DNA of 64,000 bases, taken from contig NC_011026.1 in NCBI RefSeq assembly GCF_000020525.1, positions 2,710,001 through 2,774,000 on the forward strand, written 5' to 3'. A program made the translations under genes and the position numbers. Positions 15,324-39,765 of the stretch are shown one piece after another (within the stretch, counting starts at the first letter, position 1; every line of letters begins with the position of its first letter). The stretch is from Chloroherpeton thalassium ATCC 35110 (lineage in GTDB: Bacteria; Bacteroidota; Chlorobiia; Chlorobiales; Chloroherpetonaceae). Under the pieces are notes generated by a model. The model was not told where the DNA came from, ran no database searches, and worked only from the letters and a program-made list of their open reading frames with translations.

Positions 15324-15878
15324 CTAATGCCGAATTATTTTTTCACGGCTTAAAAAAATAGCGGGTTCGAGATGTTTATGAAAAAAATAGGCGAATGAGC
15401 GATTTTTTTTGATCGCAGTTCGCATGCTATAACGCTTTAGAATACTTAACATAAAGCTGATTCGCGAACAATTTTTCGGCTTCAGTTCTGCAAACGCTTC
15501 TTTCGTTATCTGGTCGGTCGATGGAAACCGACGCACCTTGAGCTTTTCGCTGGAATAATTCGTCAAGCCAGCCAAATACCAACTTTCGATCTCTTGAATA
15601 ACAACAACGATTCGCGCATCCGAAACCAACCGAAACCGATGCTTGATGTAATGCTTCTTTGAAGTCACGCAAGGATGAAAATCAATGTCGCAGGCGACGA
15701 GCACATCTGCACCGATTTGCAACAGCCCCTGAATCAAGCGCTGAAGCTTTTCCGTTTTCATCTGGGCATATTGACGAACTTCCACCGCATCGTATTCGGC
15801 CAGAAAAATCGGCTTCACAATGCGATTAAAAAATAGCATATCATCATTTCCCTCAACCCAAATGAACAATCTTTTCAT
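15324..15878 (-). CDS. TOPRIM-like protein of unknown function (DUF4276-like)
   Basis: 184 residues, soluble. The start LFIWVEGNDDMLFFN matches the first TOPRIM strand with its acidic VEGxxD, and VACDIDF supplies the DxD strand. An EIESWYLAG segment is typical of DUF4276/OLD-associated TOPRIM proteins. It follows a broken Rpn-type nuclease gene by 53 bases on the same strand and precedes sucC. No AAA ATPase partner, common for this class, is present. Nuclease activity is possible but untested. Confidence 0.6.
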   Translation of the reverse strand: MKRLFIWVEGNDDMLFFNRIVKPIFLAEYDAVEVRQYAQMKTEKLQRLIQGLLQIGADVLVACDIDFHPCVTSKKHYIKHRFRLVSDARIVVVIQEIESWYLAGLTNYSSEKLKVRRFPSTDQITKEAFAELKPKNCSRISFMLSILKRYSMRTAIKKNRSFAYFFHKHLEPAIFLSREKIIRH

Positions 15879-15931: not shown

Positions 15932-16925
15932 CTACAACTCCTGAATCTTTTCAGGCGATAGTCCCGTTTCCTTCTGAATTTCCTCCACGCTTGCGCCAAA
16001 CTTTTTCATTTGAATGGCTAATTTCACGGCCAGCGAAGTCTGTTGTTCTAATGCAGCCGCCTTTTCCTTTAGCGCGGCTTCTTTTTCTTGGCGTTCTTTT
16101 TCAGCTTTTTGCTCTGCTTCAGCTTTTGCTGCTTCGGCTTCAGCTTTTGCTGCTTCGGCTTCGGCTATTTTTTTTTATGTACTTGGCCTCCTGCTCGTCA
16201 AATATCCGGTCGATTTCCTCCTCTGCTTCCAAGTTTCGTCTAAATGACTCGTCCATGAGCGGGCTTCGCAAATATTCAACCATGTCTGCAAATTCCTCTG
16301 GCGTTTCTTCTAATTCCAATATGTAATCGGCCTCTTTGCTTATCCATTTTTGGTTGAACAACGTCAAAAACTTTTCTAACCGTGTGCGCCGCTCTTTCGG
16401 CAAACGCCTCACTTGAATGATGTGAGATTGATGCGTTAAATGCTCTACAAAAAAACTCTTCACGTTCAACCGCTCTTTGCTCACCGAATCGATAATTTCA
16501 CGATTCACCGTTACGGCCATGTACGGTAAATCCTCCATGTTATAACCCAAAATGTATATCGTAATGATGGGATACGCTGCCTGATATTCAGCCATTGCGG
16601 ATTCATCCTCGCGCTTCTTCGGCTTTGCCATGTAGTTTGCGCCAAGATAATTTCTAAAGCGTTGAATGTCGGTTGAGAACTTGGACTTTTGAAGTTCAAT
16701 TAGCACAGTTTTTCGGCTGCCATCTGCTTCTTTGATGACCGCTTTGAAATCCAAGCGAAACAGAGTTAGCTGGCGTTTCTCGTCGGGAAATATGGTTTCC
16801 TGCTGATCCAGCGTCACTTCCTCAACTTCTACATCCAAAATCACCGACAAGACTTTCTTGGCAAACTTGTCATTTGCCATCAAATATTTAAATGCCTTGT
16901 CATAGAGCGGATTGACAATTTTCAT
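15932..16925 (-). pseudogene. Rpn-family PD-(D/E)XK nuclease gene, frame broken at an A9 run
   Basis: The uninterrupted frame covers 16140-16925 (261 residues). It starts MKIVNPLYDKAFKYLM and carries the nuclease core (LFRLDFKAV, then VLIELQKS), as in Rpn/PDDEXK_2 recombination-promoting nucleases or putative transposases. It stops soon after a run of nine A residues (16168-16176 on the top strand). Dropping one A restores a frame to a stop at 15932: an Ala-Glu-Lys coiled coil, then LAVKLAIQMKKFGAS and a short helix-turn-helix-like end. The restored product (about 330 residues) matches the intact paralogue at 23503-24474 (323 residues) end to end. This could be a real frameshift, a sequence error or transcriptional slippage. 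Confidence 0.75.
16116..16157. repeat. Two perfect 21-bp tandem repeats
   Basis: Two head-to-tail copies of a 21-bp unit beginning GCTTCAGCTTTTGC encode the AEAEAAK-type coiled-coil heptads in the restored frame of the broken Rpn gene. Confidence 0.85.
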
Positions 16926-17016
16926 AGCGCGTGATTGTCTTGGTTCAAGATTACAAACAGTCTGTTTTAGTAAAGCTAACGCAATTTCACAAGTGCCCCC
17001 AAAGCTGAGTAAACGA

Positions 17017-17042
17017 AAAAAGGGCTTTTAGAAAGCCCTTTC
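17017..17042. terminator. Intrinsic terminator
   Basis: AAAGGGCTTT-TAG-AAAGCCCTTT stem, downstream of the lipoprotein gene on the minus strand and upstream of the Rpn gene. Confidence 0.85.
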
Positions 17043-17082
17043 ACGCTCTAAATTTTCCAAGGAGAAATAAAAATCATGCTGG

Positions 17083-18064
17083 CTAATACTTTAATTTCTT
17101 TTTACAAGTTTCAAGCTTTGCATCCGTAGCTTTGAACGATGCCGATATAGATGAAAACGTCTCGACGACTTCTGGCGGATTTTGATTTTTTTCAAGTGGA
17201 TTGCTCGCTGCTTGATAAAATCGATTAGAGAGTTCTTCAAAACGCGTGCTTTTTTGCTTGCTATACGCTTGTAGCTTTTCAATCATTTGATCGCATTGCT
17301 GCGCGGCCACATTTCGCACTTCCTGCAAACGGGGGCTTTTTACTAACAAATTTAGCACTTTGTGGTATTCCATCGCCTCCGCATGGCTGATGTCTTGAAC
17401 GGTAAAGGCAAGCACTTTCATTTTCTCCAGCGCCCCGATTAGCGCAATTTCCTCGTGAACCGCTCGCACTTTTTGCGCCAAAAGCATTGTGCTGACTTGC
17501 TCTTCTAACCTATCAAATAAAGATGTAGATAATTGAATTAATGAATCATAACGGTTAGCCGACTTGAGCGCCGTTATCTTCAATTGCGCAACCGCTTGGC
17601 CAAGTAAACTATCCGACACAGTTTGTGTCGAATCCGATTCGCGAATACCCTCTACGAAAAACTTCGCTGCATCTTGCCCTGCATCGCAACCATAGACTTT
17701 ATTGACCTTCACCAAATAAGCAATTTCCGCCACATCCCCGATAAAAACCAGCGCCGAGTCATGACTTGCTGTGTCGGGATGCGCCACCATTACCGATTTT
17801 TTGCTGACACTTTCCGGGGCTTTTAAGGCAAGATATTCGTCCTGCTTTTTTGCTTTTTTTTTGCGCCACTTTAAACCACGCTGGCACAGCTTGCGTCTTT
17901 GGTTGAACGAATTCCTGACGCGCCGCCGGCTGCTGACTTTCTTTTGAGCTGCCACAACCGGTGGCCAGAAAAACGGCAAGTAAGAAAAAAAGTGCAACCA
18001 GAGCGTGCTTTAAATCGCTGTTTTTGAAAAGATGAATCACCATAATTTTTTTCGGATTTGCCAT
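17083..18064 (-). pseudogene. Lipoprotein gene with frame broken at an A9 run
   Basis: Two overlapping frames make one gene. The first (from 18064, or an internal ATG at 18043) encodes a lipoprotein signal, Leu/Phe-rich with lipobox LATGC, then GSSKESQQP and WFKVAQKK. The second, down to 17083, encodes the remaining 250 or so residues: KKQDEYLALKAPESV, then a helical region with many Gln, Glu and Lys. They join at nine A residues (top-strand T run at 17854-17862). With eight As the frames fuse into a protein of about 326 residues. The family is not recognised. The same kind of break occurs 1.7 kb away in the Rpn gene. Confidence 0.7.
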
Positions 18065-23502: not shown

Positions 23503-24474
23503 CTACAACCGCATAATTTCTTCGAGCGAAAGGCCGGTTTCTCGAGCAATCTCTTCCGTACTTGCGCCGAATTTTTTCATTTGAACGGCCAATTTCACCG
23601 CAAGCTCTTCTTTTTGTCGGCGGTCGGCGTCTCTTTCCCGGCGCTCTATTTCCAACATTTTTTCCGTTTCGGCTTTTGCTTTCTCGGCTTCCTCACGGCC
23701 TTTTTTTTCCGCCGCGATTTGCTTCATATACTTGGCTTCCTGCTCGTCGAATATCAAATCCAGTTCCTCTTCGGCTTCCAAGTTTCGCCGAAATTCCTCG
23801 TCCGACAGCGGCGTGCTTAAATACGTCGCCATTTCCGAATATTCCTCCGGCAGTTCTTTCAGGTCTAGGATGTACTCTTTATCGGTTATCCATTTTTGAT
23901 TGAACAGGGTCAAGAACCGCTCCAAACTCGTTTGACGTTTTTCCGGCAGGCGCTTGACCTGTATGATGTGCGATTGATGCGTCAGGTGTTCCACGAAAAA
24001 GCTCTTCACATCCAGCTTTTCCTTGCTGACCGAATTGATGATTTCACGATTGACCGAGACCGCCATGTACGGTAAATCCTCCAATTTATACCCCAAGATG
24101 TAGATGGTGATGATCGGATAGGCGGTATGGTATTCGGGATAGCGGTTCGTTTCCGATTCCTTCTCTTTGGGTTTCGACATGTAATTCGCCCCGAGATAGT
24201 TTCGGAAGCGATGGATGTCGGTGATATATTTCGATTTTTGCAGTTCGATCAACACCGTTTTGCGCTCGCCGCCCGGTTCTTGAATCACGGCTTTGAAGTC
24301 CAGACGAAACAAGGTGAGCCGGCGCTTTTCATCGGGAAACAGCGTTTCCTGTTGCGCCAATGCGACTTCCACGACTTCCGTGTCCAAAATGACCGACAAG
24401 ACCTTTTTGGCGAACTTGTCGTTCTCCATCAAATATTCGAACGCCTTATCGTAAAGCGGATTGACGATTCTCAT
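23503..24474 (-). CDS. Rpn-family recombination-promoting nuclease / putative transposase
   Basis: 323 residues, intact. The N-terminal PD-(D/E)XK domain starts MRIVNPLYDKAFEYLM and contains LFRLDFKAVIQ and VLIELQKSKY. An EAEEELDLIFDEQEAKY helix, a Glu/Lys/Arg-rich coiled coil and a terminal FGASTEEIARETGLSLEEIM helical pair follow. Rpn proteins are Ca/Mg-dependent DNA endonucleases tied to RecA-independent recombination and phage defence. It is a close paralogue of the broken copy at 15932-16925, yet its codons are clearly GC-richer, which suggests separate arrival. It separates the LPP20-like gene from the PEGA gene. Confidence 0.8.
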   Translation of the reverse strand: MRIVNPLYDKAFEYLMENDKFAKKVLSVILDTEVVEVALAQQETLFPDEKRRLTLFRLDFKAVIQEPGGERKTVLIELQKSKYITDIHRFRNYLGANYMSKPKEKESETNRYPEYHTAYPIITIYILGYKLEDLPYMAVSVNREIINSVSKEKLDVKSFFVEHLTHQSHIIQVKRLPEKRQTSLERFLTLFNQKWITDKEYILDLKELPEEYSEMATYLSTPLSDEEFRRNLEAEEELDLIFDEQEAKYMKQIAAEKKGREEAEKAKAETEKMLEIERRERDADRRQKEELAVKLAVQMKKFGASTEEIARETGLSLEEIMRL

Positions 24475-37272: not shown

Positions 37273-38802
37273 TTGCTAAAGAAAAAAATCGTTCCAGACC
37301 CGTTGGACAAGGAAAATCAAACTACAGCTGAACGCAAACTAGGATTTTTAGAACGGCTCATTCCCGGATATAGATTTATTCAAAGAGGGCAATACAAATC
37401 AGGCATTCTGACACTCACCGTTGCCTTTAGTTTCGTTCTTCTTGCAGCATTTAGAATTCAGTTGATTGTTGGCAGCCTAAAATCTTTTTTCCTATCCGCG
37501 TTTTTGGCAATTCTATCATGGAGCGAATTTATTGATATTTTCTCTGCCGACATTTTAGAATTTTGGATCGGGGCATTTTACCTCATCTTTATACTTACCA
37601 TTATTTACCGCTCGTCGCATAAAGCACTTTTAAAACCACAGCTACCAAAATCATCGGAACAGAGTTTTAGCCAATGGCAACTGGCGTGGAAGGAATTTCT
37701 GAAAAAAAAAGTGGCGCTAAGTGCTCTTTTTATTGCATTTCTACTTTATACAATTGCGTTCTTAGCTCCGTTTCTCGCGCCTTACGCACCAAATTCACAA
37801 AAGGACTTCATCGTTACGGCCTACCAACCGCCTCTTTCTAAATTTGATGTTTTGGTTTTTCAAGAAGAAAAGAAAAGCTTCATTCCACTCCGACAAGACC
37901 GCTCACTCACAGCAACTGTTGCCAACGAACTGATTCGCCAAAATGAATGGCTGCGGCTCAGAGGAAATACGGCAGAGTTCGAATTTGTCAACGCCTATCA
38001 AATTGAAGGCACATCTGTTGTTTATAAGCAAGGCTCTCGAGTTAAATCAGAGCCGCTCACGAGCTTTCGAGACCATGATAAGCTCGCCAAAACAGCTTCT
38101 AATGAAAATCTGCCATTTGTGGAGCAACGAACATTTTTGTTAGGCACAGATCAATATGGACGCGATATTTTTAGCAGGGTGATTTATGGTTCTCGAATTT
38201 CTCTCTCTATTGGATTTCTGGTTGTACTTATTGCCGTTACTTTGGGAACGATTCTTGGCGTCGTTTCTGGCTATTTTGGCGGGTTTACGGACGGTCTTAT
38301 CATGCGCTTTGTGGATATTTTGATCGCATTTCCGGGGTTATTTTTAATCTTAATTATTATTTCGGCTTTTGGGAATTCTATTTTTTTGATAGTCCTCACC
38401 TTATCTTTCACGGGTTGGATGGGCGTTTCAAGATTAGTTAGGGGACAAATTCTTTCTTTGAAAGAGCAAGAGTTTATTTTAGCAGCGAAAGCGCTTGGCC
38501 TGTCAAATGCAAGAATCATATTCAGGCATTTAGTTCCAAATTCCCTAACGCCTGTTATTGTAGCTGCAACGCTCAGAATTGGCAGCATTATTCTAACAGA
38601 AGCCGGTCTTTCTTTTCTTGGACTTGGCGTGCAACCGCCGACCGCCAGTTGGGGAAATATCATCAACGAGGGACGCGATAATCTGTTAAATCATTGGTGG
38701 ATTTCAACTTTTCCAGGCCTTTCAATTGTGCTCACAGTAGTTTGTTTCAACCTCATCGGAGATGGTATCCGCGATGCGATCGATCCCAGAATGAGAGATT
38801 AA
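37273..38802 (+). CDS. ABC transporter permease, OppC/DppC type, with extended N-terminus
   Basis: 509 residues, much longer than the usual 290-300. Residues 1-115 add two or three extra membrane segments before the standard permease. The OppC_N-like segment (WKEFLKKKVALSALFIAF...FLAPYAP) begins near residue 136, a soluble loop of about 130 residues follows, then the permease core (LGTDQYGRDIFSRVIYGSRISL) and the EAA loop (LAAKALGLSNARIIFRHLVPN) that contacts the ATPase. The start is a TTG with weak AGAG upstream. No other transporter subunit is adjacent. Substrate (peptide or other) unknown. Confidence 0.85.
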   Translation: MLKKKIVPDPLDKENQTTAERKLGFLERLIPGYRFIQRGQYKSGILTLTVAFSFVLLAAFRIQLIVGSLKSFFLSAFLAILSWSEFIDIFSADILEFWIGAFYLIFILTIIYRSSHKALLKPQLPKSSEQSFSQWQLAWKEFLKKKVALSALFIAFLLYTIAFLAPFLAPYAPNSQKDFIVTAYQPPLSKFDVLVFQEEKKSFIPLRQDRSLTATVANELIRQNEWLRLRGNTAEFEFVNAYQIEGTSVVYKQGSRVKSEPLTSFRDHDKLAKTASNENLPFVEQRTFLLGTDQYGRDIFSRVIYGSRISLSIGFLVVLIAVTLGTILGVVSGYFGGFTDGLIMRFVDILIAFPGLFLILIIISAFGNSIFLIVLTLSFTGWMGVSRLVRGQILSLKEQEFILAAKALGLSNARIIFRHLVPNSLTPVIVAATLRIGSIILTEAGLSFLGLGVQPPTASWGNIINEGRDNLLNHWWISTFPGLSIVLTVVCFNLIGDGIRDAIDPRMRD

Positions 38803-38943: not shown

Positions 38944-39765
38944 ATGCAAATTATAGAGTTTTTGCTGTCGCTATTTGTTTTTATCCTGTATTTAGCAACA
39001 GCGTCTTTTTATCTGATTCATTTTTTCACGGATTCCGCGTGGTCACTTAAGGCCAAGCGCCCATTGCTCATCGCCACGTTTTCAGCTCACCTCATCTTTA
39101 TTAGTGCGCTAACAGCGATGAACGGGTACATTCCCATCGCATCGCTATATCAAATTATGACTATGATAGCACTGACGCTATCGTTCGTTTATTTAATTAT
39201 AGAGTTTAAAACGGAAGCTCACGAGACTGGCGGTTTTGTCATTTCTTTGGCAACCCTATTTCAAATGATTTCCACGATTTACTTTTCAACGGTTAAAAGC
39301 ATCGATCCCGCAATTAAAAATTGGATCATAGAAGTGCACATCCTAACAGCTTTTTTGGGATACAGCGCTATTTTTATCGCCGGAATTTATGGAATGCTTT
39401 ATCTGATTTTATATCGCCAAATTCAATCGAACCATTTCGGCCTGCTCTACCAACGCTTGCCGAACCTGGAAATCATGGAAAAAATGAGTTATACATCAAT
39501 TGTCCATGGTTTTTTTTTCATGTCAGTCGCGATTGTGGCTGGACTCATTGAAATTCCAAGAACGCACCAAAGCCCATCCCTTTTGCTAACAGATCCGAAA
39601 CTCATTGGAGTGCTGATTATTTGGACTTCTTATGGAATTGGGTTGTTGGTAAAAATCAAATTGGGCTGGAATGGCAGAAAAATGGCAATATTGTTTGTAG
39701 CAGGCTTAGTATTAACATTTTTTTCAATCACGTTTTTTAATCTTTTTTCGGCCAGATTTCACTAA
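38944..39765 (+). CDS. CcsA/HemX-like membrane protein
   Basis: 273 residues with about eight membrane helices. It belongs to the cytochrome c assembly (CcsA/CcmC/HemX) superfamily: the SLYQIMTMIALTLSFVYLIIE and HILTAFLGYSAIFIAGIYGMLYLILY helices carry the usual conserved histidines. A family member directly before hemA is the usual hemX position; HemX in Bacillus lowers HemA levels, whereas CcsA handles haem for cytochrome c. The sequence alone does not decide. A nine-T run at 39510-39518 is in frame. Confidence 0.75.
   Translation: MQIIEFLLSLFVFILYLATASFYLIHFFTDSAWSLKAKRPLLIATFSAHLIFISALTAMNGYIPIASLYQIMTMIALTLSFVYLIIEFKTEAHETGGFVISLATLFQMISTIYFSTVKSIDPAIKNWIIEVHILTAFLGYSAIFIAGIYGMLYLILYRQIQSNHFGLLYQRLPNLEIMEKMSYTSIVHGFFFMSVAIVAGLIEIPRTHQSPSLLLTDPKLIGVLIIWTSYGIGLLVKIKLGWNGRKMAILFVAGLVLTFFSITFFNLFSARFH

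Follow-up and report, generated by a model that had tools for sequence, protein, structure and literature searches.

Two neighbouring genes lose their frames at A9 runs

The window, the whole stretch of 64,000 nucleotides that was analysed, belongs to the Chloroherpeton thalassium genome (a single contig of 3,293,456 bases) and contains two neighbouring minus-strand genes that each lose their reading frame at a run of nine A residues in the coding strand. The first encodes a putative Rpn-like nuclease of a distant PD-(D/E)XK type, whose ORF as it stands (16140..16925, minus strand, 261 aa) ends shortly beyond an A9 run at 16168..16176. The second encodes a lipoprotein; its N-terminal ORF (17759..18064, minus strand, 101 aa) includes a signal peptide and a lipobox-like Cys and loses frame at an A9 run at 17854..17862, two bases after which lies an A6 run. 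Counted from the start of the run, a stop codon is reached after 12 codons in the Rpn-like gene and after 34 in the lipoprotein gene. In a second frame, which is the +1 frame in both genes, the Rpn-like sequence continues for 78 codons and a stop (15932..16168, minus strand) and the lipoprotein sequence for 257 codons (17083..17862, minus strand), with coding-like codon use (scores of 23.4 and 40.5, respectively) and with no further stop or frame change in either stretch. The first-pass annotation had placed both runs and both losses of frame correctly, and had argued that eight or eleven As would restore the frame; this also holds, both long products requiring one A fewer or two more. Comparison with relatives and paralogues indicates that the halves on either side of each run were one gene.

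The Rpn-like gene and its copies

The Rpn-like protein of the window gave no match in Pfam, NCBIfam or PADLOC, TIGR01784 included. Six of the 19 aligned family members do match TIGR01784, the best homologue (L123) scoring 32.7 bits against a cut-off of 52.1 while spanning nearly the whole profile. In a profile search against the PDB, the tail alone was matched, to a designed-looking ‘CAP REPEAT’ chain (8vd6). A structure model of the protein (pLDDT 83) returned no Foldseek match at E ≤ 0.001, and its matches in VIA were weak: the best was acetyl-CoA carboxylase (Z 4.2), and many restriction and repair nucleases, including many of the PD-(D/E)XK type, were found at Z 2.5–4.1, EndoMS, McrC, BamHI and MspJI among them. 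Four residues (D58, E76, Q78 and K79) are invariant across 19 Rpn-like sequences. We call the protein Rpn-like and do not regard it as a proven Rpn.

As judged from the paralogue alignment, the part of the gene beyond the run comprises a repeat helix and a C-terminal part common to the paralogues, and it is 75.7% identical to the paralogue L002 over the last 37 residues of L002. The A9 run is adjoined by a 21-bp tandem repeat of 3.3 copies, encoding seven-residue repeats (16100..16166, minus strand); such 21-bp repeats are also present in other Rpn-like tails of this clade (L117, L119, L121–L123 and L125). The arrangement is like that described for Rpn with its intragenic antitoxin RpnS, namely an N-terminal nuclease domain, a repeat-bearing helix and a small C-terminal part (PMC10327210). 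The repeats in that description, however, have four residues instead of seven, the window protein is a weak match to the family, and the C-terminal part is out of frame in this copy. A literature search on heptad repeats in Rpn proteins yielded largely unrelated papers.

An intact Rpn-like paralogue with an in-frame A8 run in its tail lies in the same window (23506..24474, minus strand). Among the three other copies in the genome, two carry a single frame through the site of the A9 run, while the third (L004, genome 2800441–2801206) is frame-broken at a T6 run inside the nuclease domain. The dN/dS values between copies are 0.054–0.09 in the four of six pairs with unsaturated dS, showing, at the level of codon substitutions, that purifying selection acts on the Rpn copies. 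The tails are constrained too, with values of 0.107–0.212 in the five of six pairs that are unsaturated. Adjoining the Rpn-like gene, an ORF at 15324–15878 (minus strand) matches the candidate defence family HEC-01B (E 4.5e-7).

The lipoprotein gene and the region between the genes

The closest relative of the lipoprotein gene, L041, belongs to the same family, reads as a single open frame that includes a signal peptide and adjoins the same protease; the second-frame continuation in the window is 31% identical to it. Between the W-F motif and the K-S/T motif the window has 85 nt, compared with 84 nt in all three relatives compared (L041, L046 and L047), a count that left out further relatives matching mainly inside long proteins. 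Because the A6 run sits two bases after the A9 run, the extra base cannot be placed uniquely. The C-terminal region of the lipoprotein also has weak matches inside longer frames of about 640 to 2200 aa, both in relatives and in its own genome (L042, L043, L045 and L049–L051).

A terminator-like hairpin (17018..17042, minus strand) lies between the two genes, so that a shared transcript is not required; matches to the consensus are no commoner here than in shuffles of the region. With that reservation, the hairpin weakens a common cause acting through one transcript.

The runs are private

One scan of genome contigs yielded 26 Rpn-like loci, of which 19 reach the linker where the A9 run lies (L113–L129, L134 and L136); the remaining seven, which are truncated by contig ends or span other parts, are uninformative on the run. 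None of the 19 has A9 at the linker site, so slippage is not a conserved device there, and on these grounds we rejected a programmed slippage site for the Rpn family. The frame is open through the linker in 18 of the 19 loci, the exception (L134) looking decayed and likewise having no A9 there. Some of the Rpn-like loci carry A8 runs elsewhere in the gene. At the lipoprotein site, no run of seven or more As occurs in any of the three relatives.

Neither gene resembles a long-standing pseudogene. Each contains a single lesion, with no further damage beyond either run, which led us to reject long-standing decay, and relaxed constraint was not seen in the Rpn paralogues (dN/dS 0.05–0.09). A very recent lesion would not be expected to leave such signs. 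The low dN/dS and the single lesion therefore imply a break that arose recently, is an artefact or leaves the gene functional.

The dnaX run of the same genome

A positive control is provided by dnaX of the same genome, which is split at an A9 run in the coding strand (genome 166101–166109; L056:1101–1109). A search of 26 genomes gave a match in 25, of which 24 loci were read, one per genome (L199–L222); the remaining match was weak, lay in another part and was left out. A9 or A10 occurs at one site in all 24 loci of the order. In 22 of them dnaX is split: the short frame stops 10–34 nt from where the run starts, and the −1 frame encodes the long product. In the other two (L211 and L213) the run does not interrupt the long frame. 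In every one of the 22 split loci the long product requires one A more. Since this direction is constant, ribosomal −1 frameshifting and insertion-biased slippage could both serve. A dnaX split of this type has already been described, including the nine As of C. thalassium, and transcriptional realignment was argued for at the run (PMC3711429).

The two genes of the window share with dnaX the loss of frame at a coding-strand A9 run. They differ in that all 24 loci retain the dnaX run, which requires one A more in the 22 that are split, while the runs here are private and require one fewer. Programmed −1 ribosomal frameshifting of the E. coli dnaX type was rejected for both genes, the downstream frame being +1 in each.

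Homopolymer runs across the genome

To place the pair in context, 148 A or T runs of at least nine bases were examined, listed up to about 2.90 Mb together with sampled stretches beyond, so that the genome total is at least 148. By a codon-usage rule, which was loosened once after missing the two known breaks, about 30 of these runs lie in intact genes (20 A and 10 T on the coding strand), although a few of the 30 are near gene starts and possibly outside the gene. Runs of this length need not break genes, as had been proposed from the T9 run at 39510–39518, which is indeed in frame. A further in-frame run in the window, an A9 at 37702–37710, had been overlooked.

Five of the 148 runs break genes. 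Besides the A9 runs of the Rpn-like and lipoprotein genes, they are the dnaX run (A9, genome 166101), an A10 run in a GT4-type glycosyltransferase gene (L142, genome 634835) and an A9 run near the end of a BadF/BadG-type gene (L070, genome 940526). Three of the five, those in the Rpn-like, lipoprotein and BadF-type genes, look like A8 runs grown to A9. A8 runs were sampled over 1.264 Mb, where 108 were found on the coding strand of intact genes. In-gene A runs of nine or more were broken in 5 of 25 cases compared with 0 of 108 for A8 (Fisher’s test, P 0.00017), and leaving out dnaX changes this to 4 of 24 (P 0.0009). Four further candidates at eight-base runs comprised a T8 run (2094427) and three A8 runs that seem, on visual inspection, to mark gene borders. 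All five breaks are at A and none at T on the coding strand, a difference that is not significant (P 0.29). The window itself contains 22 A8 matches where 53 are expected from shuffles. Probable further breaks, judged by eye from codon usage, were noted at T7 (1885706), T8 (2094427), T7 (2421443) and A7 (2540184).

That two such events lie 1.7 kb apart had been considered unlikely by chance. This is borne out only mildly: given five breaks, the probability of a pair within 1.7 kb is 0.017 when drawn from the 35 in-gene runs and 0.011 under uniform placement, by a test chosen post hoc. Bare runs of at least nine are often close together, the 148 including 14 pairs of neighbours no more than 1.7 kb apart.

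Origin of the extra base

The two frame breaks are not a programmed device; their most likely causes are recent and private indels of a single base, or homopolymer miscalls that went uncorrected. The earlier proposal offered sequencing error or transcriptional slippage; of these, error could well be involved, while slippage fares poorly, the runs being private, the frame opposite to that of dnaX and the direction disfavoured. A plain recent indel made by replication slippage is a third option and at least as likely.

We give about an even chance to recent slipped-strand replication events that each added a single base to the A tract of one of the two genes in the strain that was sequenced. Under this model the tract would have lengthened by one base, probably from A8 to A9, in each gene, the Rpn-like gene losing the tail of a distant Rpn-kind nuclease and the lipoprotein gene losing most of the lipoprotein, in two events that would be functionally unrelated. 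Slippage by RNA polymerase may occur at the resulting runs, and any rescue should be low because the long products require the disfavoured direction of slippage. The model draws support from the 85 nt found where all three lipoprotein relatives have 84, and from the intact Rpn-like frame in two of the three other copies. The 19 Rpn-like loci without A9 at the linker, the single lesion in each gene, the constraint on the Rpn copies and the rise in broken genes from A8 to longer A runs also speak for it. The probable breaks at T6, T7, T8 and A7 runs suggest that homopolymer indels may arise by a general process in this genome. Against it, a random process does not predict two of five breaks 1.7 kb apart, and a base-calling error would leave an identical pattern. 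The confinement of all five breaks to A on the coding strand also counts against it, though not significantly.

Such an error, with a true genome sequence shorter by one A at each run and two undamaged genes, is a serious if distinctly less probable explanation. It agrees with the absence of other damage in either gene and with the apparent constraint on the Rpn copies, and probable frame breaks at T6–T8 and A7 runs are what homopolymer errors would also give. It sits poorly with the A8 runs, none of whose 108 in-gene examples is broken, though a base wrongly added to A7 would show there. The dnaX run, moreover, is genuine to the order, so that A9 calls in the assembly are not generally wrong.

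Transcriptional slippage at real A9 runs would yield mixed mRNAs and a short product together with some full-length product, and we regard it as unlikely. A precedent is the ‘pseudo pseudogene’, in which a frameshift turns a non-slippery A8 into a slippage-prone A9, the rest of the gene is intact and some normal product is kept (Baranov et al. 2005, PMC1088944). Frameshifts from A8 to A9 that leave residual product are thus already known, and dnaX, split at A9 in this very genome, is a case where transcriptional realignment has been argued (PMC3711429). Any rescue here, unlike in the ‘pseudo pseudogenes’ so described, would require the disfavoured direction: full-length translation of either gene calls for losing one A or gaining two, against a gain of one in all 22 split dnaX loci. 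According to PMC5574713, RNA slippage at homopolymers chiefly adds bases: in Buchnera, 151 of 157 RNA insertions but only 16 of 57 deletions fell in homopolymers, and in E. coli RNA homopolymer deletions were rare. These spectra, being from other organisms, offer an argument rather than a measurement that rescue is improbable here. Neither run, in addition, is kept in any relative compared.

Slipped-strand phase variation, in which reversible changes of tract length would turn production of the Rpn tail and of the lipoprotein on or off within the population, is very improbable: the run is the sole lesion in each gene and lipoproteins and defence-type nucleases are plausible phase-variable genes, but no run is kept at either site in paralogues or relatives, and contingency loci usually have tracts longer than A9. 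Hardly to be expected, too, is a length-variable switch at the Rpn-like A9 run that would disconnect the nuclease domain from the repeat and the antitoxin-like tail, leaving an unrestrained or inactive nuclease in part of the population or of the mRNA, with the neighbouring lipoprotein switched likewise. Among the papers listed by a literature search on Rpn and phase variation, none dealt with a switch in rpn, as judged from titles and abstracts.

Real A9 runs would offer new cases in which to measure rescue by RNA polymerase slippage in the disfavoured direction, the dnaX A9 run serving for comparison, and miscalls would call for a corrected annotation of both genes. A specialist would find neither result surprising. 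The 24-locus comparison of dnaX within the order extends the earlier description of that split (PMC3711429).
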